Positions 20,189 to 28,702 of a DNA stretch of 64,000 bases are shown one piece after another. The translations under genes and the position numbers were made by a program. The notes under the pieces are model-generated. The model was not told where the DNA came from. It did no database searches and saw only the letters and a list, made by a program, of their open reading frames with translations. How positions within the stretch are numbered: position 1 is the first letter of the stretch; each line of letters begins with the position of its first letter. The stretch comes from Pelagimonas varians (GTDB lineage Bacteria > Pseudomonadota > Alphaproteobacteria > Rhodobacterales > Rhodobacteraceae). The DNA lies in assembly GCF_003208435.1 (NCBI RefSeq), contig NZ_QKMF01000002.1:248001-312000 (forward strand), in the 5' to 3' direction.

Positions 20189-20929
20189 TCAATGGCAGAC
20201 GGCCCCTGCGGTCTGCAGCACGGCGCCGGGATGGTCCGGCAACCTCAAAAACGTAACGCGACGATTTTCGGCAGCCTTGGGGTCATAGGTGTTTTTGAGC
20301 ACATGCTCTCCGAAACCTACAGGGTAGAGCGGCAATCCGACATAGCTGCTTTCCAGCGCGTGGGTCACAGAGGCCGCGCGGCGTAGAGACAGATCGCAAT
20401 TGTAGCCGACGGAACCCACTGAATCGGTATGCCCGATGACAGCATAAGGCGTTCCTGCCAAAGCGGGATCTTGCAAAGCTTCAACCAGTTGCATCAATTT
20501 CCCGATTTGATCTGCGCGGATATGGTCGCTGTTATAGTCAAACTCGATGGAAATCGCGACAGAGGGCAGGGCGACTTTGCCGCCACTTGGCTTGGTAGGT
20601 GTATGATCCACTGCCGGGGCATCATATACCGGCGGCGTTGCAGGCGGTTCGGTGCTGATTGCGACGTGATTGTCATTGAGGTCCAGAACGAGGGTTTCAT
20701 ACTGCGGCACCACCGCGCTTTCGAACTGAACACCATTGGCATCGCGCCCGACATCGGCGCAATTGGCCGCCGAGGCGTTCAGCATACAGCGCGCCAGCGG
20801 GTTGGTGGGTTGGGGTTTCATCATCGGGATCACTGCTGTGTCACCCGGAATGAAGATTTCTCCGCTTTGCGCTAGGGCTGCCAGAGGCAGCCCCAGACAA
20901 AACACAGAGGTGGCTAAGAGTTTTAACAT
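20189..20929 (-). CDS. OmpA-family peptidoglycan-binding protein, exported
   Basis: 246 residues with a signal peptide (MLKLLATSVFCLGLPLAALA). The C-terminal OmpA domain (about 120-235) has SIEFDYNSDHIRADQIGKL, the helix pairing region PYAVIGHTDSVGSVGYN and LSLRRAASVTHAL, the peptidoglycan-binding signature, then VGFGEHV and NRRVTFLRL. There is no beta-barrel or lipobox, so it is a free periplasmic OmpA-like protein with a Pro-rich middle (about 95-118). It lies 13 bp downstream of the di-heme protein gene on the same strand and is the last gene of that set. Confidence 0.88.
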   Translation of the reverse strand: MLKLLATSVFCLGLPLAALAQSGEIFIPGDTAVIPMMKPQPTNPLARCMLNASAANCADVGRDANGVQFESAVVPQYETLVLDLNDNHVAISTEPPATPPVYDAPAVDHTPTKPSGGKVALPSVAISIEFDYNSDHIRADQIGKLMQLVEALQDPALAGTPYAVIGHTDSVGSVGYNCDLSLRRAASVTHALESSYVGLPLYPVGFGEHVLKNTYDPKAAENRRVTFLRLPDHPGAVLQTAGAVCH

Positions 20930-20942
20930 CTCTGTGCTCCTA

Positions 20943-23348
20943 TCAATGTCCGGTCACAACAACCGAGATTTGCGATTTGATCACGTCGGGGTTGTGATCA
21001 CTGACACCTCGGTAATCGACGCCGGCAACGTTCTGCCTGTCTTTGCCGTTATCCCCAAGGTCGAGGGCAAGCACTTCGTTCACCACTTCTGTGTATTGAT
21101 CCTTGGTCAATGGCTTGTGGCTGGCTGCGCAAGACACTTTGGATGTGTCACGGGTGTGCAGATCAATCGCATCATGTCCGCCATTACAAATGGCCAGAAT
21201 GGTTTCCAGACCTTCATGCGTGGTTTTCAGGCTGCCGCGCGGTGGGAAGACATATTGCGACCCGCCTTTGATGACCTCATCCTCAAGACCGGGGAAGGGG
21301 TACAGCACACAGCTTTGATGACGATCATCGATTGAAATCAAGGTCAGGCGGCAGTCGTGACGCGGTTCAATAAAGACCTGCAACCCTTCGCCAACCACAT
21401 AAGTGGGTTTGTTGGTATAGACGGTCAAATGGCTTTGGGTTGGGACCGAGTGCTGGACCGGATCATGGGCTTTGTGATCGGGCTTGGCAACATCGGCATA
21501 GGTCGTGATTGGCGTATCCTTTTTCGCTGGCGGCGCTGCATAGACGGTCGAGTGATCCGCGGCAGGTGGTGCATAGGGGGTATCTTTGACCACGGCCGCA
21601 ACCGACGCTGTCAAGTTAGCCGGTGCTTTGTGATCGTTGATGATCGGGCGATAATCCGTCAGTTTTTCCATCAACGCAGGGTATGCGGCGGTCCATTCAT
21701 CGCGAGCAATCGGGGACTGTTCCAGTCGCGTCATCAAGCTGGCAAACTGATGTCCAACAAAGGGCATCCGCTTGCGCAGCATATCTTCGGTCATGCCCAG
21801 TTCATTGGCGGCTTGCTGTAGGTCGATGAAATGATCAACGTGATAGACAAACAGCCCGCGGATTGGTTCTAGGCCGCCAGCAGCGGTTTCAGGGTCAATT
21901 CCGGCTGAGCGCAGCGTGTCGAAAAAGGCTTGTTCGTCCTTCTTGAACCACTCTTGCACCACCTTTTGGCCGGGGTAGATGGCATCGATGGTTTGCCGTG
22001 CTTCGGACGGCAGGGCGAGGTTGTTGATTGCCACATCGCGCACAGCATCATCGTTGTAGCGGATGCCTTTGGAATGGCAGGACATGCAGCTGATACCGTT
22101 GATGACTTCACCGGTGCCGTCTGAATAATCATCGTCGCGCACAATGCTGGTGGGGCCGACATCCAAACGCGCACCGTCAGCGGTGTTCAGGTAATAGGCA
22201 TGAAACCCGTTCGGCAGGGTAAAGATCGACTCGCCGCCATCGTGTTCGAACGCGAGGTCGGGGCCGTACACATTTGCTGGCCCAAGCGGATATTCAAAAA
22301 AGCTCTGCCGCCCTTTCGAGCCTGCAAAATCATAGGAGGTCCAGAAAAAACCGGTCCCGAGTGCGTGGCGTTCGATCAATCGGTTGTTGGTAGATACACC
22401 CGAATTTTGAAATCCTGCGCGCACCACTTGTTCATTGGCGATGTTTTTCGCCATGTCGAGGTTGAGCAAACGTTCCAGCCCCTGAACGGTGTCAGGCATG
22501 TCGAGAAGATCGTAGTATAGCGGGGCCACCGGAGCGGTCGACGCAAACCAATCGGCGCGGATGATGGGAATATCAGTGCCAGCCATGTGCTTGAGCGGAT
22601 TCAGATAGGGGTCGGTGTCACTGGCGTACCCGTAGGGGTAGATGGTTTCGAGCCGGTGCCATTTGCTGGCATCCCAATCGATTTCCGGCAGGTAGATCCG
22701 CATCAAAACGCCGTGTTCGTCCACCTGCTCCCACTTGTACGGATCAGGGTTCCAGCTGAGCGCATTGATCAGTTTGACCGTTGCCTGACGATAATTGTCG
22801 TAGTTGTCTGCGCTGATGTCCTTGTCATTGTACAATGGGCGAAGCGAAATATAGCGGATGCGATCACGCCGGTTGGTCGGTTGCTTTTGTAGGTCTTCCT
22901 GCGCCAGCCGGTGAATGTCTTCAAGCGAAACAAACTGCTTTTCAGGGGCGTTTGCGCCTAGGCTTTCGATCCAAAGCTGCAAGACTTCAAGTTCGGCTTC
23001 TTCGGGGGTGCAATCGGGTGACCAGCAGTTGTCTGGCATCGGTGGCGATCCACCGGCGATCACTTGATACAGCTTGGACTTTGCGTGATCGCCAATGGAC
23101 ACAAATTTGGGGTCTTGGGACAATCGGCGCATGTCCAAAACGTGACCAAAGCCGGATTTTGCTTTGGTCAGCCCTTCGTTCAAAGCACCGTCCTGATGAC
23201 ATCCGGCACAGTATTTATCGAGCACCTTATAAGCCGCCTCTTCTTGCGGCGAGGCATCCATGGGTAGAGCGGGTCTTTCGGCCATTGCCGGGCCCGCAAA
23301 CATCGCGGCCGTTGCCAATAAACTGGCTTTGAATAGATCGCGTTTCAT
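20943..23348 (-). CDS. Exported di-heme c-type cytochrome-like protein with C-terminal DUF4384-like domain
   Basis: 801 residues with a signal peptide (SLLATAAMFAGPAMA). Two CXXCH heme-attachment motifs are seen: CAGCH at 47-51 in an N-terminal cytochrome segment (EEAAYKVLDKYCAGCHQDG) and CMSCH around residue 425 (INGISCMSCHSKGIRYNDD). The layout around them resembles DUF1585/planctomycete-type cytochrome proteins without obvious enzymatic motifs. A Pro/Ala/Lys linker (about 610-665) leads to LTVYTNKPTYVVGEGLQVFI and CRLTLISIDDRHQSCVLYPF, which resembles the DUF4384 domain often found with caspase-like and protease proteins. It lies between the multidomain protease and OmpA-like genes. The redox partner is unknown. 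Confidence 0.75.
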   Translation of the reverse strand: MKRDLFKASLLATAAMFAGPAMAERPALPMDASPQEEAAYKVLDKYCAGCHQDGALNEGLTKAKSGFGHVLDMRRLSQDPKFVSIGDHAKSKLYQVIAGGSPPMPDNCWSPDCTPEEAELEVLQLWIESLGANAPEKQFVSLEDIHRLAQEDLQKQPTNRRDRIRYISLRPLYNDKDISADNYDNYRQATVKLINALSWNPDPYKWEQVDEHGVLMRIYLPEIDWDASKWHRLETIYPYGYASDTDPYLNPLKHMAGTDIPIIRADWFASTAPVAPLYYDLLDMPDTVQGLERLLNLDMAKNIANEQVVRAGFQNSGVSTNNRLIERHALGTGFFWTSYDFAGSKGRQSFFEYPLGPANVYGPDLAFEHDGGESIFTLPNGFHAYYLNTADGARLDVGPTSIVRDDDYSDGTGEVINGISCMSCHSKGIRYNDDAVRDVAINNLALPSEARQTIDAIYPGQKVVQEWFKKDEQAFFDTLRSAGIDPETAAGGLEPIRGLFVYHVDHFIDLQQAANELGMTEDMLRKRMPFVGHQFASLMTRLEQSPIARDEWTAAYPALMEKLTDYRPIINDHKAPANLTASVAAVVKDTPYAPPAADHSTVYAAPPAKKDTPITTYADVAKPDHKAHDPVQHSVPTQSHLTVYTNKPTYVVGEGLQVFIEPRHDCRLTLISIDDRHQSCVLYPFPGLEDEVIKGGSQYVFPPRGSLKTTHEGLETILAICNGGHDAIDLHTRDTSKVSCAASHKPLTKDQYTEVVNEVLALDLGDNGKDRQNVAGVDYRGVSDHNPDVIKSQISVVVTGH

Positions 23349-23381
23349 ATCAAGTCTCCTGCTACCAAGGGGGTGGCGAAA

Positions 23382-25592
23382 TCAGTTACAACGAATGGAT
23401 AGATATTTGGTTGACGACCAGCCGCGCTGGCCTGCACTGCCTGAATAGGGCGACAGGCATTGCCCCGAGATACATTCAAGGCGTGCCCAACCGCTGCGCT
23501 GGGCCAAGACGCGCACTTGGTCGCCCAAATAAACTTCAGACAGTTTCTTGCCTTTGGAAGAGGGTTTGGCGCGCATGCTCAGATAGCCGGACCCAGAGGC
23601 GCGTGTGCGGCTGGAATAGGGGTCGAGGTTGACCACACGGGCGTTGCATTGGCGCACATAGGGCTGGGTGGCGGTCAAAAGCGGGCTGTAGACCCAGCCC
23701 TTTTGGCCACTGGGCAAGATAACGTTTGACCATTTGCCCGAAGTGGTGATGACGGACAGACGGGTGCCGACATTGATCTCTGTGAAATAGGGGTAATTCG
23801 TGCCGGGGCCGGGGCGCACATTCAATCCGCCGTCATTGTTATTGGCCACATACATGGTGCGATTTGACGGAGCGGGCGTTGGTGTCGGGACATGGGCATT
23901 GCCCCCTTGCCAAAGAACTTCGGCCACATATAGCCGGCCCGAGGAACAATAGCTGTCACTTGGGACCGCGCCTTGGGATTTCAGATTGTTGATCTGCCAA
24001 TCGGCGTTGGATTTCGACACGGTTTTGACGGTGATGCCATAGTACCCATTGCTTGATTTAAAAATGCGCACGCCAGACCGGCCTGAAAACCATTGGTTGG
24101 CAAAGGCGATCGCCTCAGGGATCGACGGGCGCGAGGCAGTCACGATGTAACACTGGCTGTTGGACAGACGGTAATTGCCGTTCACAACCTGTGGGCTTGT
24201 TTGGGCTGGCGGCGGGGTCACCACTGTCGATTGAAGATAGGTGATCCGGTCGACCACAGCGCTGCCAATGCAAGCGGCATTGCGTCCGCAAGCGTCGCGG
24301 GTGCTTGTACGCCATGTGGCTTGTTGGCGCGACGTGCTGCGTCCGCTTTGGTTGTTGTATGCGTATTCAAGCCGCTCATCGAGGCCAGCCAGATACGCAT
24401 CTGCGCATATCGCCGTTTCTGTCGGGGTCAGATGGGACGCGCTGCACCAAGGGCGCAGATATGTCACGGGGGTCGGTTCAATCGGCTTGGGTTTGATCGG
24501 GGTTGGTTCAACGGGCGGTATCACTTCGGCGCTTTTGCACTGATGGTTGATAAAGCTTTGAGCGAAGGGGGCAAATTTATGCCCTTGGCATTGTTCTGCA
24601 TAGGCACGGTAGGCAAAGCATTCGCCATAGCCCTTGGCCTCGGCATACAGGGCATCACACAGTGCACCCGCCTCGTCCTGATCGGGAACCGGCGTTGGTG
24701 TCGTGTCCACTGGCGGATCAACAGGCACCGGATTTGGATCCGAAGGCGGCGCGTCATTCAGGGTGCTCAACGCTGCCTCAAGGATGTCAGAGCGTTCAAT
24801 AATATCCGCCATCGGGATGGCAAAATTGACGCTGTCGCGCTTTGATCCCGCATGGTGCAGGCCAATCACCATCTGCAAAGAGGCGTCGATCACCGGTGAA
24901 CCGGAATTTCCCGGCAGGGTATCGCATGTGTGGAGCAGGCGATTGTTGGATAGGGCCGGATTGTTGGCTTTGCATTTCTCGCGGCTGATGCGCTGGGCCT
25001 CGCCCATGGGATGGCCGATCACCCAATAGGGATCGCCGTCATTCGGGGCGGCTGCGGCCAGTTTCAGCATGCCATAATCTGCGCTGGGGTCGCCCAGCAC
25101 CTCTAGCAGTGCGTAATCAAGGTCTTCGTATGCCTCAACCGGTGTTGGGCTGACGGTAAATTTCCGTGTGCCCTCTTCAACCCCCTGCTGCGTATAGCCG
25201 GCAACAAATTGCACCGCGTCGATACGGGTGGCACCGGCGCGTTCATTGTTCAAAATGCCCGGCACACAGTGGTAGTTGGTTAGAATGTGTTTCTTGTCGA
25301 CAATAAAGGCGGTGCAGGGGAAAATTCCCTTGTCGGTCAGAATATCCAAGCGGCCGACAGAATGACCGATTTTCGCAAAGATGCTTTGTTCGGAATAATT
25401 GCGGATACTCTCGTTGTTATAATCGCCAACCGAGAGTTCAAATTCGATATCACCGGCGCTGGCCGATTGTTTGCGGTTCAAAACGATATTGCCGAAATCG
25501 CCGCGGTCGAACCCAACGACATCTTGCGCAAAGGCCGGAGTTGATGCGGCAAGACCTGCAAGTAGTGATGTAGTGGCGACGAAATTTCGCAC
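23382..25592 (-). CDS. Exported multidomain trypsin-like serine protease (protease + LprI-like + SPOR-like + SH3b domains)
   Basis: 736 residues with a signal peptide ending AFA near 22. The trypsin-like domain has His108 (TNYHCVP), Asp159 (EDLDYALLEV) and Ser230 (LPGNSGSPVI), so the triad looks intact. After a Pro-rich linker (about 283-308) come a Cys-containing region, an LprI/DUF1311-like segment (LTPTETAICADAYLAGLDER), a SPOR-like part (about 470-565, CYIVTASRPSIPEAIAFANQ) and two SH3-like domains (GLNVRPGPGTNYPYF; YLSMRAKPSSKGKKL). SPOR and SH3b modules usually bind peptidoglycan. It is the first gene of a three-gene minus-strand set, 33 bp before the cytochrome gene. The domain combination is unusual. 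Confidence 0.8.
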   Translation of the reverse strand: MRNFVATTSLLAGLAASTPAFAQDVVGFDRGDFGNIVLNRKQSASAGDIEFELSVGDYNNESIRNYSEQSIFAKIGHSVGRLDILTDKGIFPCTAFIVDKKHILTNYHCVPGILNNERAGATRIDAVQFVAGYTQQGVEEGTRKFTVSPTPVEAYEDLDYALLEVLGDPSADYGMLKLAAAAPNDGDPYWVIGHPMGEAQRISREKCKANNPALSNNRLLHTCDTLPGNSGSPVIDASLQMVIGLHHAGSKRDSVNFAIPMADIIERSDILEAALSTLNDAPPSDPNPVPVDPPVDTTPTPVPDQDEAGALCDALYAEAKGYGECFAYRAYAEQCQGHKFAPFAQSFINHQCKSAEVIPPVEPTPIKPKPIEPTPVTYLRPWCSASHLTPTETAICADAYLAGLDERLEYAYNNQSGRSTSRQQATWRTSTRDACGRNAACIGSAVVDRITYLQSTVVTPPPAQTSPQVVNGNYRLSNSQCYIVTASRPSIPEAIAFANQWFSGRSGVRIFKSSNGYYGITVKTVSKSNADWQINNLKSQGAVPSDSYCSSGRLYVAEVLWQGGNAHVPTPTPAPSNRTMYVANNNDGGLNVRPGPGTNYPYFTEINVGTRLSVITTSGKWSNVILPSGQKGWVYSPLLTATQPYVRQCNARVVNLDPYSSRTRASGSGYLSMRAKPSSKGKKLSEVYLGDQVRVLAQRSGWARLECISGQCLSPYSGSAGQRGWSSTKYLSIRCN

Positions 25593-25703: not shown

Positions 25704-26111
25704 TCAGGTGTCTTCGCGCTCAACAGGGCCTCCTTGGGCCTCCCAAGTTGAAAAACCTTCGCGCAGATGGGCAACGTCGAATCCCATGTCGATCAACGTT
25801 GCCGCGCTGAGGGCTGAGCGCCAACCGGATGCGCAATGCAGCACAAATGTTTTGTCGCAACCGTCTTCGCGGGCAAATACGTCTTTGAAGTAGGGGCTAT
25901 CGGGATCGACCCAAAATTCCAACATTCCGCGCGGGGCGTGAAAGGACCCGGGGATATAGCCGCTGCGGCGGCGCTCGCGGACGTCGCGAATGTCAACGAT
26001 GACAACGTTCGGGTCATCCACCATGGCGATCAGTTCAGGGGTTTCGAATTCGCGGATGCGGGCACGGGCCGACGCGACCATTTCAGCGGCTGTGGTTTTG
26101 AGTTTACGCAT
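25704..26111 (-). CDS. Rhodanese-like domain protein
   Basis: 135 residues. A single rhodanese domain contains VVIVDIRDVRERRRSGYIPG, SFHAPRGMLEFW, and the active-site loop CASGWRS, with the catalytic Cys in VLHCASGWRSALSA. It probably transfers sulfane sulfur to cyanide-like or protein thiol acceptors; there is no signal peptide, so it is cytoplasmic. It follows the amino-acid ABC ATPase gene by 51 bp on the same strand and may be the last gene of that operon. Confidence 0.88.
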   Translation of the reverse strand: MRKLKTTAAEMVASARARIREFETPELIAMVDDPNVVIVDIRDVRERRRSGYIPGSFHAPRGMLEFWVDPDSPYFKDVFAREDGCDKTFVLHCASGWRSALSAATLIDMGFDVAHLREGFSTWEAQGGPVEREDT

Positions 26112-26162: not shown

Positions 26163-26891
26163 CTACAAGACCCGTGACAAAAATGCTTTTGTCCGCTCTT
26201 CATTGGGCGCTTCGAAAATCTGGTCGGGTGGACCTTGCTCCAAAATGCGCCCTTGGTGAAGAAAGCAGACTTTGTCGGCCAATTCGCGGGCAAAGCCCAT
26301 TTCATGTGTGGCTAGAACCATAGTCATGCCTTGGCTGCGCAGGTCGCGCAAAACATCCAGAACTTCGCCGACCAATTCGGGATCAAGGGCAGAGGTGATT
26401 TCGTCAAACAGCATGATTTCAGGCTGCATGGCCAAGGCCCGAATGATCGCAACCCGCTGCTGTTGTCCGCCAGACAGCTGATCGGGGAAATGGTTCATCC
26501 GGTCATGCAGCCCGAACCGTGTGAACATCTCTTCGAGGGCGGGGCGCAGCTGCGCCCGCGATCCGCCCAATATCCGGCGAGGGGCCAGCATGGCGTTGTC
26601 CAAAGCGGTCATATGCGGGAACAGATTATAGCTTTGGAACACCATTCCAATACGCTGGCGCACGGGTTGCGGGTCTTTTCCCGGTTCGGAAATATCTGTC
26701 CCGTCCAGAAAAATATTCCCGTCGTCAATGGGCTCAAGCAGGTTCATGCAGCGCAGCAAGGTAGACTTGCCCGATCCTGATGCACCGATGAGGCAAACCA
26801 TTTCCCCCTTGGTGATCGTCAGATCAATTCCGCGAATAACCGGATTGTCGCCAAAGGCCTTTTGCACGTTTTCAAGTTTGAGATCGGCCAT
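26163..26891 (-). CDS. Polar amino-acid ABC transporter ATP-binding protein (GlnQ/HisP type)
   Basis: 242 residues. Walker A is GASGSGKST, the Q-loop is [16 protein letters not shown], the signature is [16 protein letters not shown], Walker B is [14 protein letters not shown] (the polar-amino-acid family usually has DEPTSALDPE; here the P is I), and the H-loop is [13 protein letters not shown]. These identify the PAAT family. The ATG overlaps the permease stop at 26891. With one permease and one binding protein upstream it completes an importer, probably with the single permease acting as a homodimer. Confidence 0.92.
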
Positions 26892-27709
26892 CAGCTGCGT
26901 GCCTTTGACTGTTTGTTCATCAGATAATCGGCATAGCGCGTGGCGGGGATTGTCAGCGCCAGAAAGATAAGGGCCGCTCCGACATAGGGGGTGAAGTTCG
27001 CCATCAGGGATTTGTAGACGCCTGCCTGTCTGAAAATCTCGACCGGCCCAATAAAGCTGAGCAGCGCCACGTCTTTTTGTAGTGCGATGAACAGGTTCAT
27101 ATTGGCCGGAACCACGCGGCGGACGGCCTGCGGTAAAATCACGTAGCGCATGGTATCGCCGCCAGAAAGCCCAAGCGACAGTGCGGCATTGCGCTGGCTG
27201 TCATGGATGCTTTCGATGCCAGATCGGATCACCTCGGCAACATAGGCGCTATAGACCAAAATCAACGCCAGAGAACCCCAGATGTAGGGTGAATTCCATG
27301 GGCGCGGCAAGCCAAGGCCAGGGATGCCAAAGCCAATCAAATAGATCACCAAAATCACCGGTAGCCCGCGAAACACATCGGTATAGGCAATGGCAAGCAA
27401 CCGTACCGGATAAAGCGCAGGGCTGCGCAAATCGCGGGCGATGGCGACGATCAATCCAAGCGCCGCAATCAGCGGGGCACACCAAAGGAAAATGGCGACG
27501 TCCATCACAAAAGCGTTCAGCAGTCCGGGAAAGGTTTTGGCAAAGACAGCCCCGTTAAAAAAGCTGCGTTTGACGTTTTCCCATCCGGGGGCCAGTGGAA
27601 CCAAAAGAACAATGGCGGCCAGCACCGCAAAGGTCGAGGCTGCGGCGATCATATTGGCGCGTTTGCGCTGGCGGGCCTCAAAGGACTGGCGGCGGGTTTG
27701 TGTGGGCAT
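26891..27709 (-). CDS. Polar amino-acid ABC transporter permease
   Basis: 272 residues. A basic N-terminus ([16 protein letters not shown]) precedes about five to six membrane segments. The HisMQ-type permease signature is seen in [20 protein letters not shown] then [20 protein letters not shown], the EAA loop that contacts the ATPase. [19 protein letters not shown] is typical of the family (FRGTPLLVQL class). The substrate cannot be read from the permease. A strong hairpin (27730-27756) lies just upstream, between it and the binding-protein gene. Confidence 0.92.
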
Positions 27710-27729
27710 GGGCGTCCGGTCATTACAGG

Positions 27730-27756
27730 GGCAGCGCCAGAAACTCTGGCGCTGCC
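27730..27756 (-). promoter_or_regulatory. Perfect 12-bp stem-loop between binding-protein and permease genes
   Basis: GGCAGCGCCAGA-AAC-TCTGGCGCTGCC is a perfect inverted repeat with a 3-nt loop in the 72-bp gap between the binding-protein stop and permease start. No T-run follows on the minus strand. By analogy with malE-malF intercistronic repeats it may stabilise the upstream binding-protein mRNA and lower downstream expression. Confidence 0.65.
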
Positions 27757-27781
27757 AATAGGATATAGTGGTGAAAAGCTG

Positions 27782-28594
27782 TTACTTGATCAGCGGAACG
27801 CCGGTTGTGGCCTGCAGCCACTCAGCTTCGATTTCGGCCAGTTTGCCGTTTTCGGTCAGGGCGGTGATGGCCGCATCAACGCATTCTTTGAGCGGAGAGC
27901 CTTTTTCCATCAACATGCCGAACTGATCGGGGTTTTCGCCGCGATCCGCGGGGAACTGACCCAGCAACGCGCCGTCGTTCAGCACAACAGCAGACAGATA
28001 CAGGGCCGTTGGCAAGTCAAACAAAGCGGCGTCGATCTGGCCCGCTTGCATTGCAGCGGTGACATCCGCGTTGTCATCATACAAAAGCGGCGATTTTTCT
28101 GGTGCGATCAGGTCACCCAGCATCGGGACAGCTGTGGTATTGGCGTCCGCGCCCCAGATCAAAGATTTGAGCGAGGCAACATCAGCCGTCGCGCCAGCCT
28201 CCACAACGGATTTGGTGGTCAGAACCGCCATCGCCGAGGTGTAGTAGGGCGCTGAAAAATCAACCATTTCTTCGCGTTCGGGTGTGATCGAAAACTGTTG
28301 CATGTTGACGTCGAATTCTTTGGCACCGGGCTGGATGGCTTGATCAAAGCTGGTACGAATCCAAGCCACATGATCGGCATCAAACCCCATCTCGGCAGCG
28401 ACGGCATATGCCACGGCGGCCTCAAACCCTTTGCCGGTCTCGGGTGCATCATCCATCACCCAAGGAAAATAGGCCGGGTTGCCGGTGGCGACAGTCAGCA
28501 TGCCATCGGTCAGCGTCTTTCCGGTGGCGCAGCTGTCTGCATAGGCGGCGCTGGAGGCCAGCATCAAAGCGGCGGCGGTTGTCCAGAACTTCAT
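27782..28594 (-). CDS. Polar amino-acid ABC transporter substrate-binding protein (family 3)
   Basis: 270 residues from the ATG at 28594, chosen over the ATG at 28600 because GAGGG is then 6 bases away rather than abutting. The signal peptide is MKFWTTAAALMLASSAAYA. The mature protein shows SBP family 3 traits: MLTVATGNPAYFPWVMDD at the start, GKGFEAAVAYAVAAEMGF, then VAWIRTSFDQAIQPG and EMVDFSAPYYTSAMAVLT. It delivers an amino acid or similar compound to the adjacent permease. The nearby BKACE enzyme suggests a beta-keto or amino-acid-derived substrate, but this is inference. Confidence 0.9.
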   Translation of the reverse strand: MKFWTTAAALMLASSAAYADSCATGKTLTDGMLTVATGNPAYFPWVMDDAPETGKGFEAAVAYAVAAEMGFDADHVAWIRTSFDQAIQPGAKEFDVNMQQFSITPEREEMVDFSAPYYTSAMAVLTTKSVVEAGATADVASLKSLIWGADANTTAVPMLGDLIAPEKSPLLYDDNADVTAAMQAGQIDAALFDLPTALYLSAVVLNDGALLGQFPADRGENPDQFGMLMEKGSPLKECVDAAITALTENGKLAEIEAEWLQATTGVPLIK

Positions 28595-28702
28595 GATCAT
28601 CCCTCACTGTTTTTGTTGCGCGCAGTTGACCGCTACGCTGCGCGCTTGTCCAGTGCCAGAACTGGAAAATGCCATCTTGGCGGGGGTTTTCGGACCAAAT
28701 GG

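Follow-up and report, generated by a model that had tools for sequence, protein, structure and literature searches.

The stretch analysed here (hereafter, the window) is 64,000 nucleotides (nt) of Pelagimonas varians, family Rhodobacteraceae (contig NZ_QKMF01000002.1, positions 248,001 to 312,000 of the forward strand), and the element in question is a block of three consecutive genes on its minus strand. These are PROT (nt 23382–25592; open reading frame (ORF) of 736 amino acids (aa) with a GTG start), coding for a trypsin-like serine protease, CYT (nt 20943–23348; 801 aa), coding for a predicted c-type cytochrome with a DUF4384 domain, and OMPA (nt 20189–20929; 246 aa), coding for an OmpA-family protein of the peptidoglycan-binding type. 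The intergenic gaps are of 33 base pairs (bp) between PROT and CYT and of 13 bp between CYT and OMPA, as given in an earlier reading of the same DNA made from the letters alone (hereafter, the sequence-only reading), which had also proposed that all three products are exported. Indeed, a signal-peptide-like hydrophobic stretch was recognised, by eye and by hydropathy score, at the N-terminus of each of the three proteins, from which we infer that they are probably exported. A terminator scan around the block did not rise above shuffled sequences and a promoter scan was uninformative.

Pfam search placed a trypsin-like peptidase domain at aa 93–244 of PROT (nt 24861–25316, minus strand, as are all features of the block; Trypsin_2, E = 3.8e-20, 73.5 bits against a cut-off of 27.6). 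The catalytic triad H108/D159/S230, already described as intact in the sequence-only reading, is identical in all 18 aligned homologues and, with a domain above cut-off and an intact triad, PROT is assigned to the trypsin-like peptidases (PF13365/PF00089). Among sequences of solved structures, it matched a glutamyl-endopeptidase (E = 4.7e-5). The SH3b region was found again as two SH3_3 stretches (E = 1.7e-17), that is, an SH3b domain at aa 588–639 (nt 23676–23831) and a second SH3b-like domain at about aa 668–732 (nt 23397–23591), the latter also retrieved by our own profile SH3A (E = 2e-5). For the LprI-like module (about aa 385–457; nt 24222–24440) the support is indirect. No Pfam match to LprI (PF07007) was obtained in the window PROT at E ≤ 1, three of the 18 family members reached E ≤ 0.05 (best 0.0031), and a profile built from the PROT segment matched caspases whose same region does match Pfam LprI; a comparable module is shared with caspases of the long-form loci described below, as also seen by BLASTP with those of loci L033 and L034. 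The SPOR-like domain had to be given up, since no SPOR (PF05036) match was found in the window PROT at E ≤ 1 and no SPOR family found a match in more than one of the 18 members, the sole SPOR match seen being in the divergent protein of locus L051. Among the homologues, the one at L043 (10760–13255) carries a duplicated LprI-like module, and those at L049 and L050 are devoid of the segment previously named SPOR-like.

The product of CYT is a predicted c-type cytochrome with two CXXCH motifs, putatively heme-binding, as given in the sequence-only reading; both motifs are invariant. The first (CAGCH, aa 47–51; nt 23196–23210) and the second (CMSCH, aa 421–425; nt 22074–22088) keep C47, C50, H51 and C421, C424, H425, respectively, in all 24 aligned homologues, and both are retained in each of the 17 short homologues defined below. 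The Cytochrome_CBB3 score of the window protein (25.4 bits) falls just below the cut-off of 27, which the long homologues pass. Between aa 160 and 560 (nt 21669–22871), a core conserved in the alignment and captured by our own profile has no Pfam family above cut-off. The C-terminal end, formerly called DUF4384-like, matched DUF4384 above cut-off (aa 649–721; nt 21186–21404; E = 3.5e-7, 30.6 bits against 27). Two cysteines of this domain, C666 and C721, are invariant in the 24 sequences of both forms, which fits a disulfide, either structural or switchable. The region around the second heme gave matches to CCP_MauG (E = 0.036, 15.1 against 25.6 bits) and NF040606 (E = 0.016, 14.5 against 150), both under cut-off, and identification of CYT as a di-heme cytochrome c peroxidase/MauG was rejected. 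When the CYT sequence alone was compared with solved-structure sequences only an amylase was returned (E = 0.29); the CYT profile matched cytochrome domains only, with the best match (E = 1e-6) to the cytochrome subunit of a fructose dehydrogenase.

OMPA matched Pfam OmpA (E = 1.8e-10, 41.5 bits against a cut-off of 27.2) and carries the motif GHTD..G....N..LS..RA..V, found at all 17 short loci and at the four long loci checked. The Asp and Arg residues of this motif are determinants of peptidoglycan binding in OmpA-like proteins, and domain match and motif together place OMPA in the OmpA-like peptidoglycan-binding family (PF00691). With the SH3b and OmpA matches, the first and the last protein of the block both bear predicted wall-binding modules, as had been suggested.

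To follow the block across the family, a sample of 394 genomes, about one per genus, was searched for CYT. CYT was matched in 23 of the 394 genomes, of which 16 hold a short form (identity class of 57–87%, two CXXCH) and seven a long one. A further congener (L038) brings the short loci to 17, L039 being on the same contig as L040 and counted once. OMPA lies directly downstream of CYT on the same strand in all of them, and a PROT-family trypsin is found at all 17, directly upstream and on the same strand in 15; no gene intrudes within the three in 15 of the 17 loci. Gaps were taken from the start of the longest ORF, and negative values are artefacts of start choice. PROT homologues at E < 1e-80 occurred in 14 of 383 family genomes, and 13 of 325 had an OMPA homologue at E ≤ 1e-30; every one of these genomes holds a short CYT, and the 13 OMPA matches all lie at the CYT locus. 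The hypergeometric probability of such co-occurrence is about 1e-24 for PROT and about 2e-21 for OMPA, relatedness of the genomes being ignored. Thus, the order kept in 15 of 17 loci and the presence of all three genes in 17 of 17 support PROT, CYT and OMPA as forming a unit, and homologues scattered apart from one another, the outcome which the sequence-only reading had set against its own proposal, were not what the neighbourhood comparison returned. The three-gene block is real, and its genes do not adjoin by chance.

CYT was also sought beyond the family, in large searches that scored the best two candidates of each genome and therefore give lower bounds. A class-wide sample gave matches in at least two of 385 genomes, both within the family of the window, and a phylum-wide sample in at least four of 398, of which three belong to the family and the fourth (G1092), a partial match, lacks a clear CYT core. 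Among 72,556 plasmid records CYT was matched in one; a long-form query matched 635 and, among the 60 listed, only N-terminal cytochrome domains were matched, except in Neorhizobium. CYT-like core sequences are presumably also found in Planctomycetes. At L059 (7437–9065), outside the family, a 542-aa protein combines one CXXCH with DUF4384 (E = 5.4e-12) and has no clear CYT core.

The seven long CYTs of the family are 1103–1232 aa in length and about 27–30% identical to the window CYT. Together with one from a plasmid of Neorhizobium petrolearium, which belongs to another order, they make up a four-heme form (n = 8), with four CXXCH and two additional N-terminal heme domains. Caspases were found at all eight long loci and a PROT-type trypsin at none of them within the stretches read; a ferric-reductase-like flavocytochrome is also present at all eight, adjoining CYT in seven. 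An OmpA gene occurs at seven of the eight, in the operon in five and several kb off on the other strand in L032 and L036. Vice versa, our own profiles detected neither a caspase nor a flavocytochrome reductase in any of the 17 short-locus stretches, the window included. Some of the same loci had supplied sequences for these profiles (caspase, reductase, OmpA, trypsin and CYT). Pfam confirmed the caspases of L030–L034, L036 and L058, that of L035 being obtained by a PF00656 search, and the reductases of L030, L032, L034 and L036; those of L031, L033 and L035 were assigned by own profile, and that of L058 by annotation and own profile. The long-form genomes of the family, seven in number, encode 56 caspase domains, of which no fewer than 18 are close to CYT where chance would place 0.25. 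Caspases are also encoded elsewhere in short-form genomes, with at least one match in 15 of 15 tested as compared with four of 11 genomes without CYT. Active-site His and Cys motifs were recognised in 19 of 20 caspase ORFs; in the Neorhizobium caspase the His pattern was unmatched. The tails of the caspases at long loci vary (SH3b, LprI, Sel1, YARHG, NADase_transloc and PG_binding), and the caspases adjoining the long CYT at L032 (5517–7007) and L036 (10984–12528) end in a NADase_transloc domain (F5/8 type C).

The two kinds of protease also resemble each other in their tails. The L033 caspase matches PROT over aa 378–639 (26% identity, E = 1e-16, BLASTP), carrying an LprI-SH3b tail that resembles the one of the window trypsin, and by own profile and BLASTP the PROT segment is also matched by LprI modules from other caspases. 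Thus, one catalytic domain appears to have replaced another, with the tail and both partners, cytochrome and OmpA, left in place.

Further proteases related to PROT are encoded in the same genomes. Of the 14 genomes that encode a close PROT homologue, 12 have at least one other protease of at least 44% identity over the catalytic domain, this count being a lower bound. In the genome of the window, these include a trypsin 57% identical to the catalytic part of PROT and bearing a Sel1-repeat tail (L107, 7014–9803), and another, 47% identical over that part, with a beta-helix (NosD-like) tail (L108, 7266–9455). At L114 (6263–14630), four PROT-type trypsins lie in tandem, at least one having a beta-helix tail, and at L052 (3886–6096) PROT has a tandem neighbour, a further trypsin, which is fused to a WD40 beta-propeller. 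By their predicted domains, PROT-type trypsins thus form a family in which a common catalytic part is combined with many different tails. Another run of protease genes, with products that look exported, in the genome of the window (L109, contig C1:171000-190500; 6139–15361) comprises a WD40-caspase, an OmpA protein, a short trypsin 31% identical to PROT, a caspase of 1167 aa, an unknown protein and a second OmpA protein; no CXXCH protein was present among its minus-strand ORFs listed.

These observations can be brought together in a model in which CYT and OMPA look like the core of an envelope module whose protease slot switches between trypsin and caspase. OMPA, together with the SH3b and LprI-type modules, would hold the parts at the peptidoglycan, possibly as a complex. 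CYT would be the regulatory part, this being the least certain step: its heme state, altered by electron supply or by an oxidant, might gate the protease through contact with the DUF4384/core region. In the long form, the adjoining flavocytochrome reductase could feed electrons from NAD(P)H to the four-heme CYT. The protease would then cut envelope targets in a response to stress, damage or attack. Among the explanations considered, we hold this mechanism as a whole, an envelope-anchored protease module controlled by the heme state of CYT, to be the most likely, with a probability of about 0.4. The periplasm has no ATP pool, and thus a heme switch could take the place of the nucleoside triphosphatase (NTPase) of cytoplasmic caspase and trypsin systems. 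Alphaproteobacteria are the bacterial kin of mitochondria, and caspases are the cell-death proteases of animals. It would be a further step, and in our judgement an unlikely one, to see here an ATP-free periplasmic switch, with a c-type cytochrome gating a caspase, or a trypsin in its stead, that is anchored to peptidoglycan, as a functional parallel, or just possibly a forerunner, of the control of caspases by mitochondrial cytochrome c.

Several observations weigh against such a model. Gating, redox sensing, heme binding and complex formation are all proposals, put forward here as possible steps. Structure prediction by AlphaFold2 with CYT and three close homologues reached a mean predicted local distance difference test (pLDDT) of 30.1, with no residue above 50. 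The gene order is broken at L051, where the trypsin is divergent and lies 728 bases upstream, and at L053, where it is convergent and lies just past OMPA on the other strand, and at the long locus L033 no OmpA was seen within the stretch read. Six genomes for which no CYT match was listed have weaker matches to the protease domain or tail of PROT (E from 5e-43 to 6e-23). Neither the long CYTs nor the caspases reach the Pfam cut-off for DUF4384; as a bond shared by CYT and caspases it was rejected, the Pfam matches being weak (E = 0.00037 and 0.029) and our own profile of the CYT DUF4384 missing the caspases. Gene distances are correlated (Mantel r 0.74–0.83 over 15 of the 17 loci, L051 and L053 left out), as is also expected from plain vertical descent. 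Moreover, conservation reaches beyond the three genes. An amino-acid-type ATP-binding cassette (ABC) transporter, a possible accessory consisting of ATPase, permease and binding protein genes (nt 26163–28600, minus strand; named by eye), lies upstream and co-oriented in 13 of the 17 short loci. The permease was found at E ≤ 1e-60 in four of 31 genomes, all with a short CYT, and in none of the 27 without it, so that in this small sample it co-occurs with CYT as cleanly as the triad does. A rhodanese-like gene (nt 25704–26111, minus strand; named by eye), a neighbour and not part of the core, stands between the ABC genes and PROT in five of the 17 loci, and downstream genes of the SRPBCC and NudC types are common to ten. 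With flanks conserved on both sides, most short loci probably occupy one ancestral chromosomal place, and descent would explain part of the conservation.

The presence of the flavocytochrome reductase at all eight long-CYT loci can also be read in another way, with CYT as a functional envelope enzyme, for electron transfer or as a reductase, and with proteases that serve its maturation or quality control, trimming it or removing damaged cytochrome with no redox control over them. The resemblance (E = 1e-6) of the N-terminal heme part of the long CYT to a fructose dehydrogenase cytochrome subunit and the weak peroxidase-type matches near the second heme are in line with this explanation. However, several caspases with varied tails at one locus look more like diversified effectors than a single maturase, and the paralogous trypsins elsewhere, with their Sel1 or beta-helix tails, are effector-like as well. 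We consider it rather improbable, although it is the alternative that survives best.

A role in defence or programmed death, with the protease attacking the cell's own envelope or proteins of an invader when a phage or another bacterium perturbs the envelope, would fit the patchy presence of CYT (23 of 394 genomes). It also has parallels, as antiphage systems are known in which caspase and trypsin replace each other beside an unchanging partner (PMC12799240), and bacterial conflict systems repeatedly include trypsin or caspase modules (PMC7159879). Against it, no padloc defence model was matched by CYT at E ≤ 1 and the padloc matches of PROT and OMPA are at the level of domains only, for which reason membership of the block in a padloc defence system was rejected; in addition, the chromosomal position of the triad is conserved in most short loci, with no evident defence island. 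This explanation appears distinctly unlikely.

The ABC transporter, upstream in 13 short loci and with a permease present in 4/4 genomes with CYT and 0/27 of the others compared, might instead point to scavenging of peptides or amino acids, where the protease would digest surface protein, the transporter would import the products and CYT would serve an unrelated step. The transporter is absent near CYT at four of the 17 short loci, other genes intervene between it and PROT in seven of the 13, and at the caspase loci ABC homologues were not found except for weak ATPase matches in L030 and L031. As CYT, OMPA and the swap to caspases are left unexplained too, scavenging is in our opinion very unlikely. 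Finally, that common descent alone keeps the genes together, with no functional link, agrees with flanks conserved in 10 to 13 of the 17 short loci and with the correlated gene distances, but it is disfavoured as highly improbable, because L051, L052 and L053 keep CYT, OMPA and the trypsin without those flanks and the long form, in other surroundings and even in another order (Neorhizobium), again joins CYT and OmpA to a protease of a different family.

With regard to published systems, OmpA was reported in 14 of 217 metacaspase operons, metacaspases being abundant in Alphaproteobacteria (Asplund-Samuelsson et al. 2012, PMC3501461). A caspase stands at all eight long-form loci, whereas none was found in the window or in the other 16 short-locus stretches. 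Cytochrome, heme, redox and trypsin are unmentioned in the main text of that paper, the operon list of which (Table S2) may include cytochrome neighbours. Alphaproteobacterial proteins in which a trypsin with an intact triad, a QC pseudo-orthocaspase and DUF4384 are fused (Klemencic et al. 2019, PMC6426788) share with our loci the trypsin, the caspase fold, DUF4384 and the bacterial class. They are however single fusions with a degenerate caspase dyad, whereas here separate caspase genes, with His and Cys in 19 of 20, adjoin the cytochrome, and the main text contains neither "cytochrome" nor "OmpA". A fixed partner with either trypsin or caspase was described in 2025 for the Hachiman and AVAST protease-nuclease pairs and the canu caspase-nuclease loci (PMC12799240). 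There the partner is an antiphage nuclease, and cytochrome and periplasm are absent from the main text as far as available, in contrast to the exported heme protein and OmpA predicted here; no nuclease was matched by CYT or OMPA in the domain scans, the flanks having had no search aimed at nucleases. According to Kaur et al. (2020, PMC7159879), trypsin and caspase also alternate in the vWA-MoxR, iSTAND and related conflict systems, and peptidoglycan domains of the OmpA and Sel1 types occur in some iSTAND members. Those systems are driven by NTPases, and where the main text names cytochrome, which it does twice, the subject is the mitochondrial cytochrome c with Apaf-1. No NTPase of the STAND or vWA-MoxR type was noticed among the proteins scanned or read, where an ABC ATPase is the only one nearby, in the course of searches not aimed at NTPases.

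In their accessible parts, none of five papers (PMC3501461, PMC6426788, PMC12799240, PMC7159879 and PMC8195603) joins a bacterial c-type cytochrome to trypsin or caspase proteases. In full-text literature, a scope that leaves out most subscription journals and all supplementary tables, no description of the combination of cytochrome, protease and OmpA was found either, in line with the sequence-only reading. The cytochrome/protease/OmpA partnership could not be assigned to any of the systems compared, its component families being known.

If the proposed mechanism is true, bacterial proteases would here be controlled by a heme protein instead of an NTPase, outside the cytoplasm and without ATP. 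The swap of trypsin and caspase around the same cytochrome marks CYT and OMPA as the decisive part and offers an experimental handle on the module. With cytochrome c and caspases side by side in alphaproteobacteria, the origin of the link between cytochrome c and caspases would become directly accessible to tests. Should the redox proposal prove wrong, an explanation is still needed for a CYT core that is widespread, has no Pfam family and is strictly partnered with predicted exported proteases.

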